Source: Hyphomicrobium sp. CS1BSMeth3
GTDB taxonomy: Bacteria; Pseudomonadota; Alphaproteobacteria; Rhizobiales; Hyphomicrobiaceae
Length of the DNA stretch: 64,000 bases
Assembly (NCBI RefSeq): GCF_900117415.1
Contig: NZ_FPEI01000006.1
Coordinates: 310,001 to 374,000 of the forward strand
Direction: 5' to 3'
The translations under genes and the position numbers were made by a program. Shown here piece by piece: positions 3,167-17,317 of the stretch. The first letter of the stretch is position 1; each line of letters opens with the position of its first letter. The notes under the pieces were generated by a model that worked only from the letters and a program-made list of their open reading frames with translations, did no database searches and was not told where the DNA came from.

Positions 3167-3180
3167 TTAACCGCGGTCAA
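3167..3180 (+). promoter_or_regulatory. FixK/FNR/Dnr-type box upstream of cytochrome c
   Basis: TTAAC-CGCG-GTCAA differs by one base from the TTGAC-N4-GTCAA consensus of FixK/Dnr/NnrR regulators. Its centre is about 78 bp before the cytochrome c ATG, which fits class II activation with a short leader. Confidence 0.6.
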
Positions 3181-3251: not shown

Positions 3252-3647
3252 ATGCCGATGATTGCGCGCCTGCGGTTTCCAGTCGCCCTGATGAGTGTGT
3301 CACTGCTCGGCGCGACCGCGCTAGCCGAGGGCAATGCAGAGAATGGCGAAACCGTCTTCCGGAAGTGCCGGACTTGTCATGAGATTGGGCCGAATGCCAA
3401 AAATAAAGTTGGCCCTCACCTCAATGGGATCATCGGGCGCAAAGCGGCGGCGCGGGACGGCTATGCTTATTCTCCGGTATTCAAAGGGCTTGGTGAGAAG
3501 GGCGTGGTGTGGGACGAAGCAACGCTGCTCAAGTACATCACCAAGCCGAACGACATGGCGCCGCGCAGCAAAATGGTATTTCCCGGCCTGGCTGACGAGA
3601 GCGAGCGCAAGGATCTTCTTGAGTATCTGAAGAAGTTTCCTGAGTAG
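3252..3647 (+). CDS. class I cytochrome c (c2-like)
   Basis: 131-residue periplasmic electron carrier. A cleavable signal peptide ends at ...ATALA before EGNAENG. Heme attaches at C39-R-T-C42-H43, and Met in MVFPGL is the likely sixth ligand. The MAPRSKM...LADESERKDLLEYLKKF tail is typical of mitochondrial/c2-type cytochromes. The ATG at 3252 gives a proper signal peptide and has GGAG upstream; an ATG six bases further on is possible. A FixK-type box lies about 78 bp upstream. In this context it is a candidate donor to the CuA subunit II of the neighbouring sNOR-like complex or to NirK; that pairing is inferred. Confidence 0.9.
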   Translation: MPMIARLRFPVALMSVSLLGATALAEGNAENGETVFRKCRTCHEIGPNAKNKVGPHLNGIIGRKAAARDGYAYSPVFKGLGEKGVVWDEATLLKYITKPNDMAPRSKMVFPGLADESERKDLLEYLKKFPE

Positions 3648-3671: not shown

Positions 3672-4070
3672 TCATACGCCAAGCATCTTGTGCAGGCGTG
3701 CGTCCTTACTCTTGAAGTGATCGACGAACCAGTCCCGCACGGCGCGTCCGAGCGCCTCTTCATAGTCGACAAACGCGCCGCTTTCGTGGGCGTCGATGAT
3801 GTCGCGGATGTCATCCAGCAGCTTCTCGTGATCCGCCTTGTGCGCCGCGTACTCGTCGTATCGATGCTTGCGCATGACCGTTTCCTCGAGGGCAAAATGC
3901 GCGGATATCTTTGCGAACACCTCGCCGAGGAAGCCGCCGATGACTTCTTTTCCTGCGTTGCTCCCGATCTTGCTATGCAGCGCGTTGATAAGGTCCACGA
4001 GTTCCCGGTGTTCGTGATCGACCTCACGAACGCCAGTTTCGAACTCGGTTTGCCATTCGATGAGCGCCAT
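3672..4070 (-). CDS. bacteriohemerythrin
   Basis: 132-residue four-helix-bundle protein with a non-heme di-iron site. Ligands follow the family pattern: His21, His58 with Glu62, His77 and His81, His118 and Asp123. It binds O2 and, in several bacteria, is linked to NO handling. It is the last gene of the minus-strand operon, 8 bp after the preceding stop, so it is very likely co-transcribed with the heme-copper NO reductase-like genes. No signal peptide is seen, so it is cytoplasmic. Scavenging or delivery of O2 or NO to the membrane enzyme is an inference from position. Confidence 0.9.
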   Translation of the reverse strand: MALIEWQTEFETGVREVDHEHRELVDLINALHSKIGSNAGKEVIGGFLGEVFAKISAHFALEETVMRKHRYDEYAAHKADHEKLLDDIRDIIDAHESGAFVDYEEALGRAVRDWFVDHFKSKDARLHKMLGV

Positions 4071-4078
4071 GACTGCTC

Positions 4079-4585
4079 CTATCGGATCGTGAACGTTCCT
4101 TGGTCACTGCTGAAGTCTATTGCGAGATTCTGCTGCGCCTTGAGTTCGATAGTGACCCGGCGCTCGTAGTCGAATCCTTCCATTCTATTGCTGTCGCGCA
4201 GGCGCGCCGTAATCTCGTGCCGGCCGGGCGCAATCGAGAATTTTCGATAGATCCTAGCGGGACCATCTCGAGATAAGCCGGTCGGCTGAATGACGTCATC
4301 ATAGATGGGGACGTCACCGACGAGGAGCTGGACGCGCATCGGCAAGCGCTCGCGCCCGCATGTGTGCGGCCGGCGCTCGCGGGGCGGTAGCTTGGCGATT
4401 TCTTCCGGAGCCAGCCGCCGGCATTCCTCGACGCGCTTCGCGCCATGCGCGAAGCTGAACTTGATCTGCGCCTTGTCCGTCGGGAAATAGACAACCATCG
4501 GCCGGCTGGAGAAGTAACCGATAGCAAGCGCAAGAAGCCCATAGATTGCAGCTTGTCCCACGTATCTTGCCGCGTCGCTAATCAC
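4079..4585 (-). CDS. membrane-anchored protein of unknown function in the sNOR-like operon
   Basis: 168 residues starting from a GTG whose codon overlaps the end of the upstream fusion gene (the stop at 4578-4580 lies inside this gene). One N-terminal transmembrane segment (about residues 8-24, QAAIYGLLALAIGYF) is followed by a soluble, probably periplasmic domain with two Cys and a C-terminal beta-rich stretch (GRHEITARLRD, YERRVTIELKAQ). The topology resembles FixH-type assembly proteins, but I cannot claim homology. Translational overlap with the cytochrome b/ferredoxin fusion suggests it is a subunit or assembly factor of that protein. A longer 257-residue reading would begin inside the upstream gene and is not supported. 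Confidence 0.6.
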   Translation of the reverse strand: MISDAARYVGQAAIYGLLALAIGYFSSRPMVVYFPTDKAQIKFSFAHGAKRVEECRRLAPEEIAKLPPRERRPHTCGRERLPMRVQLLVGDVPIYDDVIQPTGLSRDGPARIYRKFSIAPGRHEITARLRDSNRMEGFDYERRVTIELKAQQNLAIDFSSDQGTFTIR

Positions 4586-6152
4586 GAATGAACTCCTCGA
4601 GTTTTGCCATCCGCTCGGCCACGGCCCGTGACGGCGGCGCGAGCAATTCATCGAGCTCACGCGAGAAGTCCCGAAGCGCGCTGTCGAGTTTGGTGCGTCC
4701 GTCGCGCCCCGCCCACACAACTCTGAGCCGTTCGGCTGGTACGCGTGCGCGCAAGTGCGGGTCGCGGGCCCTCGCAAGGCGTGCTTGCGTCCACCGGATG
4801 CCGAAGCGAGCATGGCCGCTGTTCTCGGAGCATCCGACCAGCACGACGCCATCGGCGAGGTTCTTGCTCAGCACGAAGTCGATGAATGAAGGCGGGAGCT
4901 GGCCGATGCAACGCAAGCTGACCGATGACGTCCCAGGCGGAAGGTTGCTGATGGAGGAACCGTGCTCGCAGCCGAAAACAAGTATGCGACTTTTGCCCTG
5001 CAGAGGCGCGGTTGCCGCGAGCACGGCATCGCGAAGTGCACTGATACTGTGATCGGGCAGATCGATGCCTGGAATTAGGTCGGACGCCGTTCGGAAGGGT
5101 GTCGAGGTCGGGCAGGATCCTGCGCAGATGCCGCATCCCACGCACAGTGCAGGGTTGACGATGGCCTGGCGTTCGAAGGGGCGTCCATCAGTCCGGTTGC
5201 CCATGATGATGGCGCTGTACGGGCAGTCGTTGAAGCATCTCGTGCAGCCGTTGCAATTGGCGAGATCGACCACGGCCGCCGCAGGTTTGCGCATGGGGGG
5301 CAGCCAGGGCATGGCAAGCAGGATCAGCAGCAGTGCTCCCGAGGCACCCCATGTCACCGGGCCCGGCCAGCGGTCCAGCAGCGGGTAGAGCGGCAGGTAG
5401 AACCAGTCCAGCCCGACGGTTGCTGGCACTTTGGCGAGGTCGGCGGGGCCTTGGCTCGTTGCCGGATGCACGAGCGAGAGGGCGAGCAACGCCACGAAAA
5501 CGCCGATGGCAAGGCCGCGCGGTGGATTGATGCGGGGCTTCGTCACGCGCTGGAGATGCACCCAGAGAATAACCAGCGCGATGAGCGGCACCGCGATGTG
5601 CATGAAGACCATGAGCGTGAAGAAGCGGCTCTCGAGCGTGTCGGGCGAGAAGAAGTTGCGCGCGATCGACGCGCCGAAGATGGGCAGTTTGTCGAGCCAC
5701 TCGGTGGTCACGAGCGCCACGTATTGCGCAAGCGTGTCCCAGACCATCCAGTAGCCGGTAATTCCGGCTACGAAGATGAGCACAAGAGCGGGAACGCCCG
5801 TCACCCAACTGAACCAGCGCACGCCGCGATACCGATCCAGCGCAAACTCCCTCAAAAGGTGCGCGATCACAACGACGATGAGCCCGTCCGACGCGTAGCG
5901 ATGGAGGCTGCGCATGACGCCTGCCGCATACCACTGGTCGCGGGTCATGTACTCGACCGAGGCGAAGGCGTCGTGGACGGCCGTCTCGAAAAAGATGAAC
6001 AAGTATATGCCGCTGACCGTGACCACCCAGTAGAAGAAGAAGCCGAGCGCGCCGAGGTTGAGCAACGGGTTCCACTCAGGTGGGAACACTTTGCCAAGCC
6101 CGCTCTCGGCCAGATCGAAGATCCGGCGGATGGAAAGCCGGAGCAGTCTCAT
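4578..6152 (-). CDS. cytochrome b / 2x[4Fe-4S] ferredoxin / FlpD(MvhD)-like fusion protein
   Basis: 524-residue, three-part protein. Residues about 1-270 form a multi-pass cytochrome b6-like unit (LNLGALGFFFYWVVTVSG; His pairs in SLHRYASDG...VIAHLLREF and FMHIAVPLI...LWVHLQRV). Next are two 4Fe-4S motifs, CNGCTRCFNDCP and CVGCGICAGSCP. The C-terminal 150 residues resemble the iron-sulfur subunit of methyl-viologen hydrogenase/FlpD (FGCEHG, LRCIGQLPPSF, VVLVGCSENSG). The start at 6152 forms ATGA overlap with the upstream SCO gene. The layout suggests an electron conduit between the quinone pool and a cytoplasmic or membrane partner. Its placement in an NO reductase-like operon is unusual; redox partners are unknown. 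Confidence 0.75.
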   Translation of the reverse strand: MRLLRLSIRRIFDLAESGLGKVFPPEWNPLLNLGALGFFFYWVVTVSGIYLFIFFETAVHDAFASVEYMTRDQWYAAGVMRSLHRYASDGLIVVVIAHLLREFALDRYRGVRWFSWVTGVPALVLIFVAGITGYWMVWDTLAQYVALVTTEWLDKLPIFGASIARNFFSPDTLESRFFTLMVFMHIAVPLIALVILWVHLQRVTKPRINPPRGLAIGVFVALLALSLVHPATSQGPADLAKVPATVGLDWFYLPLYPLLDRWPGPVTWGASGALLLILLAMPWLPPMRKPAAAVVDLANCNGCTRCFNDCPYSAIIMGNRTDGRPFERQAIVNPALCVGCGICAGSCPTSTPFRTASDLIPGIDLPDHSISALRDAVLAATAPLQGKSRILVFGCEHGSSISNLPPGTSSVSLRCIGQLPPSFIDFVLSKNLADGVVLVGCSENSGHARFGIRWTQARLARARDPHLRARVPAERLRVVWAGRDGRTKLDSALRDFSRELDELLAPPSRAVAERMAKLEEFIRD

Positions 6153-6949
6153 CGGAAGGACCTCATTCCGCGGCCGCTCGAGCGCCACCACTCTCTTATG
6201 AGCGCGAGAACGATCAGGCTAAAGCTGAAGAGCCCGATCCCGACGCTGATAAACAGCGAGTAGTTGAAATAGTAGCGGCCGGATTTGGGATCGTAGACCG
6301 TGCAGAAGTAGCGAATGCGATCGACGAGAATGTCGAGCGACTTCAGAGGTTCGCTGCGCCTGAGGACAAGCGCCTTGAGCGGATCCATGATGATCGGCGG
6401 CTCGAAGACCGCGCCATAGATCTGTTGGCTGACGCGCCCCTCTGCATCGATGAGGCTGACTTGCGCCAGATGATCAAAACCGCCGGCGCGGCTGTAGATG
6501 CCGAAGCCAACCGCCCTTGCCAGCGCGTCGAGGCTCTCCTCGTCTGCGGCGAGGAATTTCCAGTTGGGCAGGTCGATGCCGCGCGTGCGCGCGAACAGAC
6601 GCAATCTTTCAGGCGTATCGTTGCGGATGTCGAAACCGACCGTGATGACGGCGAAGCTGTCCTCGCCAAAGGCTCGGCGTCCGGCTTCGACAGCCGGATA
6701 GAGACTTTCGAGCAGGGTCGGGCAAACGTCGGCGCACCCAGTGTAGATCATGCTGACCAGCAGAGGCTTGCCGCGATAGTCGGAGAGCCTCACCGTGCGC
6801 CCGCTGGTATCGGTGAGCGCGAGATCTGGCAGTTGCTGGCCGAGGGCCGCCTGTGACAAGGCAATGGCATTCTCGGCATTGCTGGCGGCCAATGCGCTGC
6901 TCGGCACGAGGGCGAAAGCCAGCGCCAGCGCAAGGAATTTGCGTCTCAT
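6149..6949 (-). CDS. senC: SCO1/SenC copper chaperone
   Basis: 266-residue thioredoxin-fold protein that metallates CuA sites. An N-terminal signal sequence ends near ALAAS. The copper-binding Cys pair is C72-ADV-C76 and the third ligand is His160 in GGFDHLAQ. There is an extra C-terminal transmembrane helix (SLFISVGIGLFSFSLIVLAL), so it may be anchored at both ends. Its start at 6949 overlaps the ctaB stop as ATGA, and its own stop overlaps the start of the fusion gene the same way, so the three are translationally coupled. It serves the CuA-containing subunit II encoded upstream. senC is also the partner gene in described norSY-senC clusters. Confidence 0.9.
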   Translation of the reverse strand: MRRKFLALALAFALVPSSALAASNAENAIALSQAALGQQLPDLALTDTSGRTVRLSDYRGKPLLVSMIYTGCADVCPTLLESLYPAVEAGRRAFGEDSFAVITVGFDIRNDTPERLRLFARTRGIDLPNWKFLAADEESLDALARAVGFGIYSRAGGFDHLAQVSLIDAEGRVSQQIYGAVFEPPIIMDPLKALVLRRSEPLKSLDILVDRIRYFCTVYDPKSGRYYFNYSLFISVGIGLFSFSLIVLALIREWWRSSGRGMRSFR

Positions 6950-7857
6950 GCCAGCGGTCCGAGTAGCCATCGATCAAGCACGACGCCAGTCAGCAGTAGA
7001 AGGAGCTGGGCCAGCGATGCGAAAAAATTCCGTATCGCATTGCGGCGTGTCGGCGCGCGCGCGAGCCCAATGCTGGCCGCAGTGAAAAGGATGCCGCTCA
7101 CCACGGCGAACGCGAGGTAGATCATCCCCATGCCGAGCGCTGCCGGCGCCAGCGCAATGAGCGACAACGCGACCGTGTGCGCAAGAATGACCTGTGCGCA
7201 GATCCGATCGCCGACCACGAGTGGCAACATCGGAACGAGATTGGCGGCGTAGTCATCACGTGCAGCGATCGCCAGGCTCCAGAAATGCGGTGGCGTCCAA
7301 AGGAACAGGACGACAGCGAGGAGGATCGCCTCGATGGATATGACCGGATCGACGCTGGCGGCTCCGGCGAGCACGGCGAAGCTGCCGGCGAGGCCGCCGA
7401 TCACGATGTTGAGACACGTGCGCCGCTTCAGCCACATCGTATAGACGATGCCGTATGTGAACGCGCCCATGAAGGTGTAGAAGGCCGATTGGGCATTGCC
7501 GGCAATGCCGGCCATGATGACCGCCACTGCGAGCAGCGCCGCGATGCCGCCGAGCCACGCCCATCCGGCATCCAGACGGCCGCTCGCAAATGGCCGGGTC
7601 GATGTTCGAGCCATGCGCGCGTCGAGATCGGCTTCGGCCCATTGATTGAAGGCACCTGCGGCCCCGGCTGCCAGAAGAACGGCGATGGCGACAGCCGCCA
7701 TGCGCCACATCTCGGGAAGAGCTCCTGGAGATATCGCCAGCCCGCCGATCGCGCTGAGCATGATCGACACCGCGATCCGCGGCTTGAAGATGCCCATCAC
7801 TTCCCGGATGGTCAGCGGCTCCCGGAGAATGGCTGCAGCAGCATCAGCCCTGTTCAT
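6946..7857 (-). CDS. ctaB: heme o synthase (protoheme IX farnesyltransferase)
   Basis: 303-residue UbiA-family membrane prenyltransferase that adds a farnesyl group to heme b. The Asp-rich motif is NQWAEADLDARMARTSTRP, the second conserved region is GIVYTMWLKRRT and the WTPPHFWSLA signature is present. About nine transmembrane segments are visible. ATG 7857 follows GGAG at proper spacing; the in-frame extension upstream would run into the hairpin region. It implies that the adjacent heme-copper enzyme uses heme o or heme a in its active site, although no ctaA is seen here. The 195-bp gap to the subunit I gene holds two large stem-loops. Confidence 0.93.
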   Translation of the reverse strand: MNRADAAAAILREPLTIREVMGIFKPRIAVSIMLSAIGGLAISPGALPEMWRMAAVAIAVLLAAGAAGAFNQWAEADLDARMARTSTRPFASGRLDAGWAWLGGIAALLAVAVIMAGIAGNAQSAFYTFMGAFTYGIVYTMWLKRRTCLNIVIGGLAGSFAVLAGAASVDPVISIEAILLAVVLFLWTPPHFWSLAIAARDDYAANLVPMLPLVVGDRICAQVILAHTVALSLIALAPAALGMGMIYLAFAVVSGILFTAASIGLARAPTRRNAIRNFFASLAQLLLLLTGVVLDRWLLGPLA

Positions 7858-7981: not shown

Positions 7982-8053
7982 GTGCCTCTTTTGATTCCGA
8001 AGTTTGCTCGCGACACCAGGATCGGGGTGTGGCGAACTTCGGAATCGGGGCAC
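7982..8053. repeat. large inverted repeat (hairpin 2, just after the subunit I stop)
   Basis: Arms 7993-8007/8032-8046 (GATTCCGAAGTTTGC against GCGAACTTCGGAATC), inner ACACC/GGTGT (8013-8017/8026-8030) and outer GTGCC/GGCAC make a long stem. It begins at the stop codon of the subunit I gene. There is no U-tract, so it is more likely an mRNA stabiliser or processing site, or a repeated palindromic element, than a classical terminator. Confidence 0.75.
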
Positions 8054-9789
8054 TAGCCCATCGGCCAGAGCTGGGAGAGGTACTTCCAGTTGACGAAGTA
8101 GTAGAGGACGAAGGCCGTGAAGAAGACGGACACGAGAATGTACGTGCCCGGCAGCTTCCAGGTGCCCGCATTGCCATAGCTCGACACCGCATCGCCAACT
8201 TGGCGCTGAGGCATGGGGCCGAGCGACTCGACGATGTTCGACGCATCCACGGGCTTGCCCCACAGGACGCTCGCCACGACGATGACGACGAAAAGGGCTC
8301 CACCGATGGCGGCCATGACCGCGGATAAGCCGTTGAGAGCCAGCATCAGGAATGCGGCCGCCGGATAAGCGAAGGACAACGTCGCGTCAGAGAATGCGAC
8401 GTCCCAATGTCGCCGCGCGACGCCGAGCGTGCCTGCGCCCATCATGAAGAGCGAGATGCCCGCGACGCCAATGCCGAAGAGGTAGGGCTGCCACTTCGCC
8501 AGCCGAGGCCATATGACCTGGCGTTGGAAGATGAGGGGCAGCAGCAGGTAGGTGACGGCCATGAAGGCGAGCGTGGTGCCGGCGACGACCGTGGCGTGGA
8601 AATGCCCAGGCACGTAGAGCGTATTGTGCAGCATGATGTTGATCTGCTCGGTGCCGAGAACAACACCGGAGATGCCTCCAAGGAAGCCGAACATCACGAG
8701 CGAGAGGAACATTCCCGAGAAGGCCGGGTTCCCCCACGGTGCTTTCCGCAACCACTCGAAGGCGCCGCGCGTATAGCCGTTGCGCCGCTGGGCAGCTTCG
8801 ATTGCGCCAGGTACGGTCATGCCATGGATCATGCTGCCGAGCACGGCCATGTACATGAAGTACGAGGTGTTGAAGACGCGCCATTCCGCGCTGACACCCG
8901 GCTCCACCAGAAGGTGGTGAGCAGAGGCAAGCTGCAGGAACAGTATGTAGAGGAAAAACGCGGTGCGGCTCACCTTTTCGGAGAGCGGTTTGGCGCCGAG
9001 CAGGATGGCGATGATCGCGTACCAGATCGCGACATGGGCCGATACGTTGACCTGCTGGGAGCTGTGACCCATTGCCCACCAGACGAGCTTGTACATCACC
9101 GTATTGATCTCGGAGATGTAGCCTATTGACCAGAGCCAGGTCGGGATCAGGATGATGGCGCCCGATGCGATCGTGAAAATCGCGATGATACACGCCGTCA
9201 AGGCGCCAAAAGTAACCAGAGGGATCGAGCCTTCGTATGTCTTTTCTTCTTTGGCGATGACCAGCGTGCCGAGAAAGACGAGACAACCGAGCAGCGCGCC
9301 GACCGCGAACAGGATCAGGCCCAGGTAGAAGTTCGGATGCGCCTGGAGTGGTGGGTAGCTCGTGAACATCACGCTCGACTGCCCCTGCAGGACAGTGACA
9401 TTCGTGAGCAGACCGCCGCCCAGCATGAGCACGAAGCCGAGCCAGGCGATGCGCGGCGCAGCCAGCCTGCAGTTGAGCAGAACGGCCGACGCGAAGTAGA
9501 GCACGGCCATCTCGAAGAAAAGGATCCACAGCAGCAGTACATCGAGACCGTGCGCCGTGAGCACGAGATAGAACATGTCGGCAGGCAGCAGATGCACGGC
9601 CTGCCAGCGCGTCAGCGCCACCATCAGGCCGAACAGCCCGCCGATTGCCAGAAACACGATTGCGGCAACGGCATTCGCCTTGATCAGCCGCTGCGCTGCC
9701 AGATCGATCTTGAGACCGCTGGCCGGGCATATGCGGAACCTCGCAGCGATGCCACCGATCACACCCGTCTCAGCAGTTGCCATAGCCAT
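8053..9789 (-). CDS. norS: heme-copper nitric oxide reductase-like subunit I (sNOR type, NorS-like)
   Basis: 578 residues, about 12-14 membrane helices. Low-spin heme ligands His80 (TAHGLDV) and His398, high-spin heme ligand His396 (VPGHFH), and CuB ligands His242, His291 and His292 are all present. In oxygen reductases the residue four after the first CuB His is a Tyr cross-linked to it (HPEVY). Here the motif is GHSSQQ and the residue is Gln246. The alternative Tyr position used by cbb3 oxidases, two residues before the His pair, is Ser289. Without the Tyr the enzyme is expected to reduce NO rather than O2. Neighbours (CuA subunit, SenC, NirK, hemerythrin) match the norSY-senC clusters called sNOR in ammonia oxidisers. 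Database annotation may call it cytochrome c oxidase subunit I. Confidence 0.8.
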   Translation of the reverse strand: MAMATAETGVIGGIAARFRICPASGLKIDLAAQRLIKANAVAAIVFLAIGGLFGLMVALTRWQAVHLLPADMFYLVLTAHGLDVLLLWILFFEMAVLYFASAVLLNCRLAAPRIAWLGFVLMLGGGLLTNVTVLQGQSSVMFTSYPPLQAHPNFYLGLILFAVGALLGCLVFLGTLVIAKEEKTYEGSIPLVTFGALTACIIAIFTIASGAIILIPTWLWSIGYISEINTVMYKLVWWAMGHSSQQVNVSAHVAIWYAIIAILLGAKPLSEKVSRTAFFLYILFLQLASAHHLLVEPGVSAEWRVFNTSYFMYMAVLGSMIHGMTVPGAIEAAQRRNGYTRGAFEWLRKAPWGNPAFSGMFLSLVMFGFLGGISGVVLGTEQINIMLHNTLYVPGHFHATVVAGTTLAFMAVTYLLLPLIFQRQVIWPRLAKWQPYLFGIGVAGISLFMMGAGTLGVARRHWDVAFSDATLSFAYPAAAFLMLALNGLSAVMAAIGGALFVVIVVASVLWGKPVDASNIVESLGPMPQRQVGDAVSSYGNAGTWKLPGTYILVSVFFTAFVLYYFVNWKYLSQLWPMG

Positions 9790-9801: not shown

Positions 9802-10371
9802 TCACTGTGGCTTGCCACCCGCCGCTGACCCGGGCTCGACGACATGAATGCGGCCGACCATGGTGTGGTGGCCGATGCCGCAGAACTCGTTGCACACGAC
9901 GCTGAATGTCCCCGTCTCCGTCGGCGTAAGCGTGATGACGTGCTCGATGCCGGGATGAACCTGAATGTTGATATTCACGGGCTGAAGCGAGAAGCCGTGC
10001 TGCCAATCCAGGGATGACAGATGCAGGCGATAGCTGCGCCCCTTCTCGAGCTCCAACACCGGCCACCACTCCCATAGCCGGCTCAGCATGTAGACGTCGC
10101 CCCCGGCTGGTGGCCGGGCGACCGGAATGCCGGTCGTGCCCTCTTCGCGAACCTTGAACTGTTTCGTGAACGCTTCGGTGCGCTTCTCGAACACCGCGGG
10201 GTCTATGCGGTAAGCTTGAGTGGAAAGGTTCTGGCGCCCTTCGATATGCCAGTAGACCATCGCGCCGAACATCACGAGGCCCCACAGGAAGGCGATCACT
10301 ATCCAAATGATCTCATCCTTTTCGATGGGCTCGTTCCACCAGACGCGCTTCTCGGGAGGATGGATAGCCAC
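9802..10371 (-). CDS. norY: CuA-containing subunit II of the sNOR-like complex (NorY-like)
   Basis: 189 residues with one N-terminal transmembrane helix (about 22-41) and a C-terminal periplasmic cupredoxin domain. The binuclear CuA site is complete: His125 (WQHGFSL), Cys160, Cys164, His168 and Met171 (CNEFCGIGHHTM). It takes electrons from a soluble donor such as pseudoazurin or cytochrome c and passes them to subunit I. The GTG start at 10371 is preceded by GAGGAG. The stop is 12 bp before the subunit I start. The single helix is like subunit II of B-type (ba3) oxidases rather than the two-helix form of aa3. Confidence 0.88.
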   Translation of the reverse strand: MAIHPPEKRVWWNEPIEKDEIIWIVIAFLWGLVMFGAMVYWHIEGRQNLSTQAYRIDPAVFEKRTEAFTKQFKVREEGTTGIPVARPPAGGDVYMLSRLWEWWPVLELEKGRSYRLHLSSLDWQHGFSLQPVNINIQVHPGIEHVITLTPTETGTFSVVCNEFCGIGHHTMVGRIHVVEPGSAAGGKPQ

Positions 10372-10383
10372 GACTCGCTCTCC

Positions 10384-10563
10384 TCACTTCGCAATGGGCA
10401 TCTGAGTGAGCTCGATGAGCCCCCAGAGAATGTAGAAGACGGTCGGGATCGTGACCCCGAGGAACAGGAGCAGAAACGGGTTGTCGAGAGCCCGTTGCAT
10501 TGCCGGAATGCGTTCCGGCGGCGAGACCGACGCGTGTGGTTGCTGTTGCCCTGCATTCGCCAT
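10384..10563 (-). CDS. 59-residue single-pass membrane peptide, first gene of the sNOR-like operon
   Basis: The sequence has a polar N-terminus, one transmembrane helix (NPFLLLFLGVTIPTVFYILW) and a short tail. A strong purine-rich RBS (GGGAGGGAG) precedes the ATG at 10563, and the stop is 12 bp upstream of the subunit II GTG. Small one-helix subunits such as the IIa subunit of ba3-type oxidases have this size and placement, so it is probably an accessory subunit of the complex. I cannot show homology. A FixK-type box is centred about 80 bp upstream of its start. Confidence 0.7.
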   Translation of the reverse strand: MANAGQQQPHASVSPPERIPAMQRALDNPFLLLFLGVTIPTVFYILWGLIELTQMPIAK

Positions 10564-10830: not shown

Positions 10831-11934
10831 ATGTTCACCAGACGCGAGACACTCATGAGCGTCGCCGGCGCCGCTGTCGTCGCCGCGATGCCGGCAGCAC
10901 CTGCGGCCGCACAGGAGGCGGCCAATATCGCCAAGCTTCCTCGCAAGAAGGTAACCCTGGTGCAGCCTCCGTTCGTCCATGAGCATGATCAGGTGGCCAA
11001 GGGCGGCCCGAAGGTCGTCGAGTTCACGATGACCATCGAGGAGAAGCCGGTCGTCATCGATGATGAGGGCACGGTTCTCCAGGCCATGACCTTCAACGGC
11101 TCTATTCCGGGCCCGATGATGGTGGTTCACGAGGGGGACTACGTCGAGCTCACGCTTGTCAATCCGGCAACCAACGAGATGCCGCACAATATCGATTTTC
11201 ACGCTGCTACGGGTGCGCTCGGCGGCGCCGCACTGACGGACGTCAATCCCGGCGAGGAGGTCAAGCTGCGCTTCAAGGCAACGCGGACCGGTACCTTCGT
11301 CTATCACTGCGCGCCCAAAGGCATGATCCCCTGGCACGTCGTCGCGGGCATGAGCGGAACGATCATGATCCTGCCGCGCGACGGCCTGAAGGACGAGAAG
11401 GGCAAGCCGGTCCGTTACGATAGCGTCTACTATATCGGCGAGAACGAGTTCTACATTCCGCGCGATGCCAACGGGAAGTTCATCAACTACAAGACGCTTG
11501 GCGACAGCTTCCCCGAGACGCTCAAGGCCATGCGCGGTCTGATCCCGACCCACGTCGTCTTCAATGGCCGCGTTGGTGCGTTGACCGGCAAGAATGCGAT
11601 GACGGCGAAGGTCGGCCAGACCGTCCTGTTCGTCCATTCTCAGGCCAACCGCGATACACGGCCCCACCTGATCGGTGGCCACGGTGACTACGTTTGGGAG
11701 GAAGGCAAGTTCGCCAATCCACCGGCCAAGGATCTCGAGACTTGGTTCATCCGAGGCGGATCTGCGGGAGCGGCTCTCTATAAGTTCCTTCAGCCGGGCG
11801 TCTATGCCTACGTCAACCATAACCTGATCGAAGCAGCCGAGCTTGGCGCGACGGCACACGTGATCGTCGATGGGAAGTGGAATGACGACCTGATGACCCA
11901 GGTCAGCGCACCAGGGCCGATACGGACTAACTAG
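10831..11934 (+). CDS. nirK: copper-containing nitrite reductase (NO-forming)
   Basis: Reduces nitrite to NO in the periplasm. 367 residues with a Tat-type signal (TRRETLM). All metal ligands are visible: type 1 copper His119, Cys160, His169, Met174; type 2 copper His124, His159, His330; and the catalytic pair Asp122 and His279. Spacing matches the Alcaligenes/Achromobacter class I enzymes. The RBS is AAGGAG. It is divergent from the sNOR-like operon, with a FixK-type box in the 267-bp intergenic region. A GC-rich hairpin separates it from nirV. The product NO is the presumed substrate of the divergently encoded reductase. Confidence 0.97.
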
Positions 11935-12023: not shown

Positions 12024-12881
12024 ATGAAACTTCAAGCTGCCAGTGTTGCCGCCATCAGCGTACTCGCGATCGCAGCGGGTGCTGCCCTGCTGCAACCGAG
12101 CCATCGGGCTGCACCATCCTTGATCCAGACCGTAACGATCAAGCCGGCTTACTTTGCCTATCGCCTGCCGGGTGAGTTTCTGGCGGACGGCCGCGTCGTC
12201 GATGCAGCACGCTTCGATGCAAGTCCGAGGCACCCACTCGAAATCATGACCTATCAGGTCAGCGCCGCTGAGTATGCCGCCTGCGTTGCCGACGGGGCCT
12301 GCCAGCCGGCCGACAGCTCGGGAGCCGCTAAAGATCTTCCTGTAACGGGTGTCAGCTACCTGGATGCCGTCCGCTACGCCGAATGGTTATCTTCGAAAAC
12401 GGACGAGAGCTGGCGTCTGCCAACGGACGAGGAATGGGCGTTCGCCGCTGCCGAGCGGCTTGGTGACGATGCGCTCGGCAATGCCGATAGCGAGATCGCC
12501 AATCCAGCGGCGCGATGGCTCACGGCCTACCGCGAGCGCAACGCGCGCGAGGGGCGCGATACCCTGCCGAAGATGAGAGGCCATTTCGGCGCCAACAGCC
12601 GTGGCCTGTATGACATCGCCGGCAACGTATCGGAGTGGACTAGCACTTGCTACACGCGCACACACGTTGATGCAGCCGGCAAATCTGTGCAACGGACCGA
12701 GAATTGCGGCGTGCGCGTCACCGGCGGTCAGCATCGCGGATATATGACCAACTTTCTCCGCGACGGCAAAAGCGGGGGCTGCGCCGCCGGCATGGCGCCC
12801 GATAACCTCGGCTTCAGGCTCGTGAAAGACCCTGCACCATCGTTTGCGCGTCGCCTGTGGCAGGGTATGGCGAGAGGCTGA
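12024..12881 (+). CDS. nirV: NirV, formylglycine-generating-enzyme (SUMF1) domain protein
   Basis: 285 residues with an N-terminal hydrophobic anchor or signal (about 7-22) and a SUMF1/FGE-type domain (YQVSAAEYAACVADG, WRLPTDEEWAFAAA, GLYDIAGNVSEWTSTCY, GFRLVKD). nirV is the usual partner of nirK and is thought to help maturation or function of the nitrite reductase; its exact reaction is not known. Conserved Cys residues in the C-terminal third (STCY, ENCGV, GGCAAG) are kept. It is separated from nirK by 89 bp that includes a hairpin, so it probably depends on read-through. Confidence 0.9.
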   Translation: MKLQAASVAAISVLAIAAGAALLQPSHRAAPSLIQTVTIKPAYFAYRLPGEFLADGRVVDAARFDASPRHPLEIMTYQVSAAEYAACVADGACQPADSSGAAKDLPVTGVSYLDAVRYAEWLSSKTDESWRLPTDEEWAFAAAERLGDDALGNADSEIANPAARWLTAYRERNAREGRDTLPKMRGHFGANSRGLYDIAGNVSEWTSTCYTRTHVDAAGKSVQRTENCGVRVTGGQHRGYMTNFLRDGKSGGCAAGMAPDNLGFRLVKDPAPSFARRLWQGMARG

Positions 12882-13102: not shown

Positions 13103-13540
13103 TCAATCGACCGGTACCGTCGCGAGGAGGTCGGCAAAGACCTTCTTGGCCCTGCCAGGATGCGTCACTGCTTTGGCCTCTTCGAGATTCACGGGGTCAC
13201 CAACCAGGATCAGCGCGACCATGCCCATGCCGTAATGCGGGGTGCATTTGATCCCGTAGACGCCCTGAGCCGTCAGCTTGACGGTAAACTCCTCGTTGAT
13301 CTTGCTCTTGAAGAGCTCGGCTCCCTCAGGAAGCATGCCCTTGATGGCTTCGGCGTTGTGCGACTTGTCCGTCGGCACGAAGCGGATTGTGTCTCCCGGC
13401 GCCGCCTTCACCAAATCCGGCACGAACACCATCGCGCCTTTCTCGCCCTTGTTGAGCATGAGCACTTCATGCTCGGCCGCTTGAGCGCCACCCGCGAGCA
13501 TAAACGCCGCGAGGGCCGCCATTGCGATTGTCCGATTCAT
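13103..13540 (-). CDS. paz: pseudoazurin
   Basis: 145-residue periplasmic blue copper protein that donates electrons to NirK and related enzymes. The signal peptide ends at GGAQA. Type 1 copper ligands are His in SHNAEAI and Cys, His and Met in GIKCTPHYGMGM. ATG 13540 is preceded by AGAAAGG at good spacing; ATG 13546 is an alternative. It is divergent from a Crp/Fnr regulator gene. Its genomic place suggests it is the electron donor shared by NirK and perhaps the CuA subunit of the sNOR-like enzyme. Confidence 0.93.
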   Translation of the reverse strand: MNRTIAMAALAAFMLAGGAQAAEHEVLMLNKGEKGAMVFVPDLVKAAPGDTIRFVPTDKSHNAEAIKGMLPEGAELFKSKINEEFTVKLTAQGVYGIKCTPHYGMGMVALILVGDPVNLEEAKAVTHPGRAKKVFADLLATVPVD

Positions 13541-13704
13541 GATCATTGCCTTTCTGCGTGACACCTCGTTCGGTATCACTATTTTGATAGGCCGATCACA
13601 GCCGGCCGACGTTGTGGAATCACAAACAAAAGGACCAAGGGGCCGCGCGCGGCGATGCTTGTCACGCCTGTTGGGGCATGGGACAGTCAGCCAAAACGAG
13701 GAGT

Positions 13705-14415
13705 ATGCCGGTGGTCCGTCTTGACCGTGCTTTAATCGCCGGCCTGCCGCTTTTTTCCGGCATGGCACCCGCCGATCTCGACAAAGTGCTGGAAGGCGCG
13801 ACATCTCGGCGCGTCGCGAAAGAGGGCTTCATCTTCGAGCAGGGCGGCGAAGCCACTTCCTTCTTCGTGCTCCTCGACGGGCGCGTACGCGTCGTAAAGA
13901 CAACCCCGGACGGTCAGCAGGTGATTGTGCGCTACATCGTGCCTGGCGAAGTGCTCGGTATCGCCCGGGCTCTTGGCCGCAACACCTATCCTGCAAGCGC
14001 AATCGCTGTCGTCGATTGTGTTCTGCTCGCGTGGCCGGAGCGCCTGTGGCCGGAGTTCGCGGCGGCCTTCCCGAGCTTTGGCGCCAATACCTATAAAATG
14101 ATCGGCCAGCGGCTCGATGACGTCCAGACGCAAGTTGTCGAGATGGCTACGGAGCAGGTCGAGCAGCGGGTTGCTCACGCGTTGTTGCGGCTGGTCCAGC
14201 AGACCGGCAAGAAATCGAGTGACGGCATTCTGATCGATTTTCCAATCTCACGGCAGGATATTGCCGAGATGACCGGCACGACACTGCACACCGTCAGCCG
14301 ACTGCTCACCGCGTGGGAGCAGAAAGGACTCGTCAAGAGCGCGCGCCAGCAGGTCACGATTGTTGCGCCGCATCGCTTGCGCCTATTGGCCGACGGGCAG
14401 ACCGACAGCGAATAG
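13705..14415 (+). CDS. Crp/Fnr-family regulator (NnrR/Dnr-like)
   Basis: 236 residues: a cyclic-nucleotide-type beta-roll sensor (about 10-125), a dimerisation helix and a C-terminal winged helix (SRQDIAEMTGTTLHTVSRLL). No N-terminal Cys cluster for a 4Fe-4S centre is present, so it is not an FNR oxygen sensor. That absence, and its place beside pseudoazurin and nirK, suggests an NO-responsive NnrR/Dnr type. The Ser/Arg in the recognition helix fits binding to TTGAC-N4-GTCAA boxes, three of which lie in this window. ATG 13705 has ACGAGGAG upstream. Confidence 0.85.
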   Translation: MPVVRLDRALIAGLPLFSGMAPADLDKVLEGATSRRVAKEGFIFEQGGEATSFFVLLDGRVRVVKTTPDGQQVIVRYIVPGEVLGIARALGRNTYPASAIAVVDCVLLAWPERLWPEFAAAFPSFGANTYKMIGQRLDDVQTQVVEMATEQVEQRVAHALLRLVQQTGKKSSDGILIDFPISRQDIAEMTGTTLHTVSRLLTAWEQKGLVKSARQQVTIVAPHRLRLLADGQTDSE

Positions 14416-15638: not shown

Positions 15639-17006
15639 TCAGCGGTTGGACGCAGCAGGTAGAAACAGGCGCGGCACGCGTGCACCTTCGGGAAGGCGCG
15701 CTTCCGGCGCCACGTTGTGCAGCCGGCGAGCAAGTATCAGCTCGGCGATTATGATGATCACGGCGATGAGCGTTGTCGCCGCGGCGGCGCGCAGCAAGCC
15801 CGGAGCTTCGGCGAGGAGCGCACCGGTTCCGATCGCGACGCTCGCAAAATAGAGTACGAACCACGGCTCAACCCGTCGTTCGACGACGAGATCCTGTACG
15901 CGAGGCGTCGGCCTGCGGCCCATGACGGGACCGTAGCATTCGAGCCATGTCAGGAACGGCACGATTTTGTAGAGCTGAGAGAGGCCAAGGCCGGAAAGCC
16001 AGCCGAAAGCGAACAAGTATGTGATGGCGCCCGCATGCACGTCGAGGGTGCCACGAACGGCGGCAGCGATGAACAGCGCGATAGCCGCATAAAGCGCGAC
16101 AAGGGCGCCCCCTGCCGCCCTGAGATTGAGCTCGGTCTTGCGTCGCTTGCGGTTCCTATAGAAGAAGGCGATATCAGTACCGTAGAGGACGACTGAGCCA
16201 AGAGCCAGGGCTCCTGCGACTGCCAAGACTATGCTCACTTTGGTACCGGCTGCCGCTCCGACCAACACCATGAGAGGCATCACGGCGACGACTAAGACGA
16301 GCGCCATGCTGAGGCTCAACCACGCCACGCGGCCAGTCGCGCGTTCCGTATCTGGGGACAGCATGAACATGGGCAGCAGCCGGTAGCTGACGCCGATCGC
16401 TGTACAACTCAGCCAACCTCCAAAGCCGGCAAGAGCGTGATACGGAACGGCATTCGCGTGCAGTTCGACGAGAGTAGACGTTGCCGTCACGCCGGAAAGA
16501 ACGAAAGCAAAGCTGCCGCCCAGAAGGAATGTGCCGCCTAGTGAGGCGAGGCCTGTTGCGACGAACCGGGCCGACAAGGGCAAGGTTGGTGCGTCGAGCA
16601 TAGTGCGTGCGAGGGGCCAGATAGCCGTCAAGAAACCCGCGGCAAGAAGAACGCCCCCCCATGCGAGCAGCGGTAGTTCGATCTCGACAACGCCGGCGAG
16701 ACGCAGAAACCCCGCGAGAAGGAGGCCCAATCCGGCAAGCAGGCTCAGCAGGGCGGGCAACACCAGCGCCTGATCGCGCAATGGCTTACCCACCAGGACT
16801 GGCACAAACTGGAAGAGTGCGCCGAGTATGAGCAGACTGAGCCAGCCGATCGCCACGAGGTGCACGATCACAAGCGTCTCTGGCGCTCTCAAGCCAGTCT
16901 GGGGATAACCAAATCCTGCCGCGATCGCCGTCAAACCTGCAAGCAGGCACAGCAGTGCAGCGGCAAAGTATGCCATCGTCCAGCGCGAGATGGATGCGCC
17001 AAGCAT
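15639..17006 (-). CDS. polytopic membrane protein (about 12 TM), NnrS/heme-copper-like, function unknown
   Basis: 455 residues, about 12 hydrophobic helices. Conserved-looking intramembrane His occur in VHLVAIGWLSLLILGALF, ELHANAVPYHALAGFGGW and LDVHAGAITYLFAFGW, followed by Gln/Tyr/Lys (QLYKIVPF). The pattern His-x3-Gly-Trp-(L)2 on several helices resembles heme-binding membrane proteins such as NnrS and heme-copper oxidase relatives, but it lacks the full CuB His set. It heads an operon with DUF2249 and DUF59 genes. The ATG at 17006 has a weak RBS, and ATG 16976 is possible. An NO-response role is likely from context. Confidence 0.65.
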   Translation of the reverse strand: MLGASISRWTMAYFAAALLCLLAGLTAIAAGFGYPQTGLRAPETLVIVHLVAIGWLSLLILGALFQFVPVLVGKPLRDQALVLPALLSLLAGLGLLLAGFLRLAGVVEIELPLLAWGGVLLAAGFLTAIWPLARTMLDAPTLPLSARFVATGLASLGGTFLLGGSFAFVLSGVTATSTLVELHANAVPYHALAGFGGWLSCTAIGVSYRLLPMFMLSPDTERATGRVAWLSLSMALVLVVAVMPLMVLVGAAAGTKVSIVLAVAGALALGSVVLYGTDIAFFYRNRKRRKTELNLRAAGGALVALYAAIALFIAAAVRGTLDVHAGAITYLFAFGWLSGLGLSQLYKIVPFLTWLECYGPVMGRRPTPRVQDLVVERRVEPWFVLYFASVAIGTGALLAEAPGLLRAAAATTLIAVIIIIAELILARRLHNVAPEARLPEGARVPRLFLPAASNR

Positions 17007-17317
17007 CGATCGAGACCATCAGTTGCGAAGGCGTCCTGTATCTAGGCACAAAACATGTATCAATGATATATATTTTATTGTGAGGGTGCTGCTGTGGCTC
17101 AAGATGGCGATCGTGTCGATGTGAGAAGCGTCCCGGCCTGAGGTCGCTTGCAGCGTATGACCATACGAGCGCGCCGGGGAACAAAGGTGCAGGAGACACA
17201 ACCGGCTGGTTGGCAATTTGATCCGCGTCAAAGTAGCGTGAGTAATAAGAGACATATAAAATACATCTATCAGGCAATCTTTGCTCGCCCGATCGTGCAA
17301 CGGGCAAGGAGGAGCTA
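17007..17317. other. divergent promoter region
   Basis: 311 bp between divergently transcribed genes. It contains two AT-rich tracts (about 17045-17090 and 17240-17280), unusual for this GC-rich window and suitable for promoters, and the FixK-type box listed separately. No coding sequence is supported. Confidence 0.6.
17218..17231 (+). promoter_or_regulatory. FixK/FNR consensus box
   Basis: TTGAT-CCGC-GTCAA is the best FixK/FNR match in the window. It is centred about 94 bp before the GTG of the second Crp/Fnr gene and about 218 bp before the 12-TM gene, so it probably drives the regulator gene. Confidence 0.75.

Follow-up and report, generated by a model that had tools for sequence, protein, structure and literature searches.

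A putative eNOR-type nitric oxide reductase operon divergent from nirK in Hyphomicrobium sp. CS1BSMeth3

The window analysed here, a stretch of 64,000 nucleotides from Hyphomicrobium sp. CS1BSMeth3, carries on its minus strand (10563 to 3672) an operon encoding, in order, a 59-aa protein, subunit II and subunit I of a heme-copper enzyme, the heme o synthase CyoE, an SCO-family protein, a cytochrome b/4Fe-4S/FlpD-like protein, a 167-aa protein and a hemerythrin (Table 1). Intergenic gaps within the operon are 12 bases or fewer, except for 195 bases between the cyoE and subunit I genes. An earlier note on this DNA had placed an NO reductase gene next to nirK, and nirK is indeed adjacent, divergent from the operon, and is the sole match to TIGR02376 above cut-off in the source genome. 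The neighbouring FGE-sulfatase domain gene occupies the position of nirV, and HemN is encoded in the same island. Besides the FNR/Dnr-like box between the divergent units, further intergenic boxes lie at 3167-3180 (1 mismatch) and 17218-17231 (exact); the window holds 11 matches to the consensus that we assumed for this box, compared to 4.07 expected, and the remaining ones do not all precede genes. The nir island also encodes a 455-aa protein (15639-17006, minus strand) without a Pfam or NCBIfam match, whose neighbours are a DUF59 (SufT-like) gene and an unmatched 177-aa gene.

Table 1. Features of the putative eNOR operon and the adjoining nir genes, in window coordinates.
Feature	Position	Strand	Remarks
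Mono-heme cytochrome c, possible electron donor	3255..3647	plus	PF00034; NF043008 (cytochrome c-550) below cut-off
Bacteriohemerythrin, last gene of the operon	3672..4070	minus	NF033749 108.5 bits, cut-off 84
167-aa protein	4079..4582	minus	matches no family; one predicted N-terminal helix, beta-sandwich-like remainder, a pair of invariant Cys
Cytochrome b (N-terminal) + 4Fe-4S + FlpD-like protein	4578..6149	minus	PF00033, PF12837, PF00037, PF02662
SCO1/SenC-family protein, probable copper chaperone	6149..6970	minus	PF02630
Heme o synthase CyoE/CtaB	6946..7857	minus	TIGR01473 252.4 bits, cut-off 210.3
Putative eNOR-type subunit I (heme-copper catalytic)	8053..9789	minus	578 aa; Gln246 replaces the cross-linked Tyr
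Subunit II, cupredoxin with complete CuA motif	9802..10371	minus	GTG start, 189 aa
59-aa protein, encoded first in the operon	10384..10563	minus	no Pfam or NCBIfam match
FNR/Dnr-like box TTGACTTCGGTTAA	10636..10649		1 mismatch; between the divergent operon and nirK
nirK, copper nitrite reductase (makes NO)	10831..11934	plus	TIGR02376 531.7 bits, cut-off 296.3
FGE-sulfatase domain protein	12024..12881	plus	PF03781
Pseudoazurin, possible electron donor	13103..13537	minus	TIGR02375 168.6 bits, cut-off 109.85
CRP/FNR-family regulator	13612..14415	plus	no NCBIfam model above cut-off

The subunit I open reading frame matches PF00115 at 2.6e-66, and its best solved relative, both by sequence (E 1.5e-39) and by Foldseek, is the ba3 O2 reductase of Thermus thermophilus. 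The six metal-binding histidines claimed for it (H80, H242, H291, H292, H396 and H398) are all present as stated. Alignment with B-family oxidases places Gln246 (codon 9054-9052) in the column of the GHPxVY Tyr, as had been claimed, and alignment to ba3, which keeps this residue as Tyr237, also sets it on the cross-linked Tyr. The earlier note had further assigned Ser289 to the alternative Tyr site of cbb3 oxidases; Ser289 is present but in the wrong column, the CcoN Tyr aligning with Leu285. Its conclusion that Tyr is absent from that site is unchanged by the correction, and a Tyr supplied from another helix, which it had named as grounds for rejecting an NO reductase, is likewise not found there. 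Glu, the active-site residue of cNOR and qNOR, is also absent from subunit I, Gln246 standing instead. By sequence and tree position subunit I falls with the B family, and it lacks the cross-linked Tyr of B-family O2 reductases (Gln246; Leu285). The complete CuA site claimed for subunit II consists of C160-x3-C164-x3-H168-x2-M171 and H125, the latter aligning with the corresponding His of ba3 subunit II. The C-x3-C-x3-H-x2-M motif recurs in 84/84 related subunits II examined, and Glu20, which we take to match ba3 Glu15, is kept in 84/85.

We gathered 203 distinct heme-copper ORFs longer than 350 aa from the collected loci and aligned them. Column 246 holds Gln in 141 ORFs, Tyr in 31, Asn in 12, Phe in 12, Gly in 4, Ala in 2 and a gap in 1, with the 141 Gln246 rows coming from the genome-contig scan (79), genome searches including the source protein (58) and plasmids (4). 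The scan confirmed at least 498 relatives, the best 80 of which lie in many phyla and were picked using two peptide patterns, one of them with QQ, so that a bias toward Gln is possible. Among matches from searches blind to the motif, Gln occupies column 246 in 55/55 rows with at least 50% identity (L007-L011, L015-L043, L169-L183 and L185-L190, leaving out the fragments L013 and L191 and the duplicate loci L006 and L184), indicating that Gln246 is not due to chance. Weak motif-blind matches (25-30% identity; L012, L014 and L192-L198) have Tyr or Phe in this column.

Gln245, Asn248, Tyr257, Asn307, Tyr310, Ser319 and His322 are kept in all 141 Gln246 rows, and column 325 is Thr in 114, Ser in 23 and Ala in 4. 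In contrast, the 15 B oxidases in the alignment, selected as rows with Val-Tyr-Trp in columns 245/246/248, have Thr322 in 15/15 and Tyr310 and Asn307 each in 0/15. A single K-type proton channel is predicted for eNOR. Compared to ba3 itself, using a list of ba3 channel residues that we assume to be correct, subunit I keeps Y257, S319 and T325 and differs at Val253 and at His322, where ba3 has Thr. Retention of these path residues, together with a Tyr310 that sits on predicted helix 301-336 and is found in every Gln246 row versus no B oxidase, could suit a high-affinity O2 reductase that works without the cross-linked Tyr, Tyr310 perhaps standing in as the redox residue. We consider such an enzyme improbable, for reasons given with the host genome and nir linkage below.

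The operon, with up to eight genes, is found repeatedly across phyla, and a Defluviimonas plasmid has the identical gene order. Among the related loci, which are the best 80 of at least 498 relatives as ranked against Thermomicrobium and many of which are truncated at contig borders, a search at E 1e-5 detected homologues of subunit II in 80/80, the 59-aa protein in 71/80 (some matches weak), the cytochrome b/4Fe-4S protein in 66/80, SCO in 58/80 (some matches weak), the 167-aa protein in 49/80, CyoE in 38/80 and hemerythrin in 20/80. Ten loci encode, near eNOR, a further heme-copper-like protein (L065:9771-11255, L069:2321-3691, L083:9704-11212, L100:13068-14981, L103:15854-17584, L107:8538-10451, L113:797-2206, L116:16012-17586, L125:13292-15253 and L135:8693-10246). 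It matches PF00115 in both cases examined, retains GHxxQ and PxHYHG but is missing the helix VII CuB His pair, and is possibly an accessory subunit or a degenerate enzyme.

Table A4 of PMC8756737, in its excerpted form, gives the active-site residue as Tyr in O2 reductases, Gln in eNOR, Glu in cNOR/qNOR, Asn in sNOR and CuANOR, and Asp in gNOR. A phylogeny of 63 representative rows, with 9 HCO-like ones omitted and the rows sorted by their residue in column 246, united the 21 Gln rows, including the source subunit I, in one clade (100/99), apart from a clade of 11/12 Asn rows with Ruegeria pomeroyi and Thermomicrobium roseum (100/100). B oxidases grouped at 97/89, and the Gln clade, the B oxidases and a small divergent group were joined at 100/98. 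Because of the Gln residue in the published table and the position in the Gln clade, subunit I is, judged from its sequence, eNOR-type and not sNOR; the Gln clade is assigned to eNOR through the Gln rule and through the taxonomic range that papers report for this family. The description of the gene as an sNOR-type NO reductase is thereby kept in its second half, as the best reading, and dropped in its first (Gln rather than Asn, separate clades), while its placement outside the cNOR and qNOR types holds. cNOR/qNOR (NorB) would share the proposed reaction from NO to N2O, but has Glu at the active-site position according to the excerpted PMC8756737, compared to Gln and a CuA-bearing subunit II here.

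Assignment to sNOR, the norSY-senC family of nitrifiers, is highly improbable. The likeness consists of a B-type heme-copper protein with an altered Tyr, an SCO/SenC-family gene within the operon and a CuA-type motif in subunit II, as in Ruegeria and Thermomicrobium. However, Asn in the excerpted table (PMC8756737) stands against Gln246 here, and the Asn clade, with Ruegeria pomeroyi (L207) and L168 among its members, stands apart and does not enclose the Gln clade. Genome G455 has Gln-type L093 and Asn-type L168 as two distinct genes, and no Asn-type gene is present among the PF00115 matches of the source genome. Thr replaces His322 in 11/12 Asn246 rows. The norS-norY-senC order is likewise not found, since subunit I is followed by cyoE and then by SCO; on the megaplasmid of Ruegeria pomeroyi, formerly called Silicibacter pomeroyi, the Asn-bearing protein is followed by an SCO gene. 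The sNOR stretches L207, L208 and L223 lack the cytochrome b/4Fe-4S partner, unlike the eNOR operon. Thermomicrobium roseum DSM 5159 carries an Asn-type (L208:3875-5359) and a Gln-type gene (L047:7980-9710) on one plasmid. The twelfth Asn row, a divergent heme-copper protein in genome G456 (L149), does not join the sNOR clade in the tree and is placed close to C-type rows.

The family itself is known: eNOR has been published from Alphaproteobacteria, and so has an operon that joins it with NirK. Passages of PMC6431628 describe ba3-a1 enzymes of Magnetospirilli without the catalytic Tyr, and passages of PMC8879329 state that this alphaproteobacterial subtype was given the name eNOR once NO reductase activity had been reported for it, citing a preprint. 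Excerpts of further papers place eNOR in one operon with NirK in Ardenticatena (PMC4653789), report it from iron oxidisers (PMC8114936, PMC10734462) and already use eNOR reference sequences or profiles (PMC12569097, which mentions a set of 67 NOR reference sequences, and PMC11707229). Our locus shares with eNOR, the ba3-a1 subtype of the B family, the Gln in place of the cross-linked Tyr, a cupredoxin subunit II directly upstream, a tree place beside the B oxidases, NirK linkage and occurrence in Alphaproteobacteria, and shows no difference among the residues compared. The enzyme of Rhodothermus marinus is reportedly a characterised eNOR.

It had been foretold that automated annotation would call this gene an oxidase, and the 4 Gln-type plasmid relatives examined carry the annotation cbb3-type or b(o/a)3-type oxidase; NCBIfam yields no call above cut-off for subunit I. 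With such genes annotated as oxidases, the N2O-forming capacity of the source bacterium and of many uncultured taxa is easily overlooked, and the gene-level correction of sNOR to eNOR is useful for annotation.

The 6.0-Mb source genome has five PF00115 matches, comprising three aa3-like genes, one cbb3-like gene (called by motifs that we take to mark these types) and subunit I, with no other NOR-type gene among them and no NosZ above cut-off in the genome. Subunit I was matched at 1e-20 in 7/60 genomes (source included), at 73-97% identity in G003, G010, G019, G029 and G036 and at 29% in G042; the enzyme of G010, a genome of the same family, is 92% identical to the source subunit I. Matches were also found in 35/398 genomes of the phylum (source included; four only at 27-28% and one via a short fragment) and in 26/300 genomes from the order to which G453 belongs (three with just 25-30% identity). 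The description of the island as alphaproteobacterium-like fits. In G457, a 3.1-Mb Longimicrobiales MAG (locus L070), the sole PF00115 match lies at the place of the Gln-type enzyme; this carrier may be without a heme-copper O2 reductase, which would be compatible with O2 reduction by the Gln-type enzyme in this carrier or with gaps in the assembled genome.

A role in O2 reduction finds room in G457, and passages of PMC6967387 argue that the related sNOR may be an oxidase. The source genome, however, has its three aa3-like genes and one cbb3-like gene available for O2, the Tyr has been lost clade-wide while nir neighbours recur, and the NO reductase activity that PMC8879329, in the passages noted above, reports for the alphaproteobacterial subtype also speaks against it.

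We then assessed nir linkage among the same related loci (best 80 of at least 498). A cytochrome-d1-domain protein is encoded in 10/80, with those of L091, L098 and L116 scoring low against Thermus NirS and possibly NirN-like, and NirK above cut-off is encoded in 3/80, with one below cut-off in L117. In total 13/80 have NirK or a cytochrome-d1 protein and 67/80 have neither, many flanks being short. No match to the NirK or cytochrome-d1 queries was found in any of 18 control neighbourhoods, which are stretches of 5.6 to 17.4 kb around other heme-copper genes (4 from the source genome and 14 from carriers G453, G454, G455, G456 and G458). The comparison of 13/80 among these best-ranked loci versus 0/18 gives a Fisher p=0.059. 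If a 3-Mb genome is assumed to hold two nir genes, the expected number is 0.7 and the probability of seeing at least 13 is 3e-13, a value that depends on the assumed genome size and nir gene number. On Thermus plasmids, an eNOR relative lies near nirS or near a NirK-like gene below cut-off.

An NO reductase beside nirK is the best reading of these genes. The locus very probably encodes an eNOR-type enzyme that clears the NO made by the adjoining NirK, and the source bacterium is thus likely to convert nitrite to nitrous oxide, a greenhouse gas. The enzyme would be a B-family heme-copper protein that has lost the cross-linked Tyr (now Gln246) and would catalyse 2 NO + 2 e- + 2 H+ → N2O + H2O, releasing N2O as its product; a site without the Tyr would not be built for four-electron splitting of O2. 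Electrons may be donated by cytochrome c or pseudoazurin and pass via CuA to the low-spin heme (H80/H398), and from there to the heme-CuB site (H396; H242, H291 and H292). Protons would probably come from the cytoplasm via a K-type path altered from that of ba3, with Y257, S319 and T325 kept and His322 replacing Thr. Heme o, or the heme a made from it, would be provided by CyoE and copper by SCO.

A physiological variant of the eNOR explanation is that NO removal serves mainly for protection and conserves little energy, the enzyme being co-expressed with hemerythrin and NirK. The hemerythrin gene and FNR-like boxes in the island and the lack of a NosZ above cut-off in the source genome are consistent with this, but the CuA electron entry and the K-type path residues suggest a respiratory enzyme, and the gene is the sole NOR-type PF00115 gene, beside the sole nirK above cut-off. 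We regard a mainly protective role as rather unlikely, and note that both can hold together.

More speculatively, the putative eNOR could belong to a larger respiratory unit, in which the cytochrome b/4Fe-4S/FlpD-like and two-Cys beta-sandwich proteins feed it from quinol or a cytoplasmic iron-sulfur donor, joined in some taxa by the heme-copper-like protein without the CuB His pair, and Gln245, Gln246, Asn248, Asn307, Tyr310 and His322 make up a reshaped active site that follows proton and radical chemistry of its own. We put this forward only tentatively. The conserved cytochrome b/iron-sulfur partner provides a testable handle on electron supply to eNOR.

Departures at metal-ligand positions were seen in other rows of the alignment. 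The Gln clade has as its sister (98/95) a group, comprising L014:1303-2976, L165:1408-3090, L195 and L196, with Tyr in the proximal heme His column (GYFH) and also Tyr for the first His of the HH pair; this sister group is absent among the PF00115 matches of the source genome and present in same-family genome G010. In the eNOR-type proteins of Thermus plasmids (L045:7983-9668 and L046:3983-5665), Lys replaces the second His of GHFH, a low-spin heme ligand.
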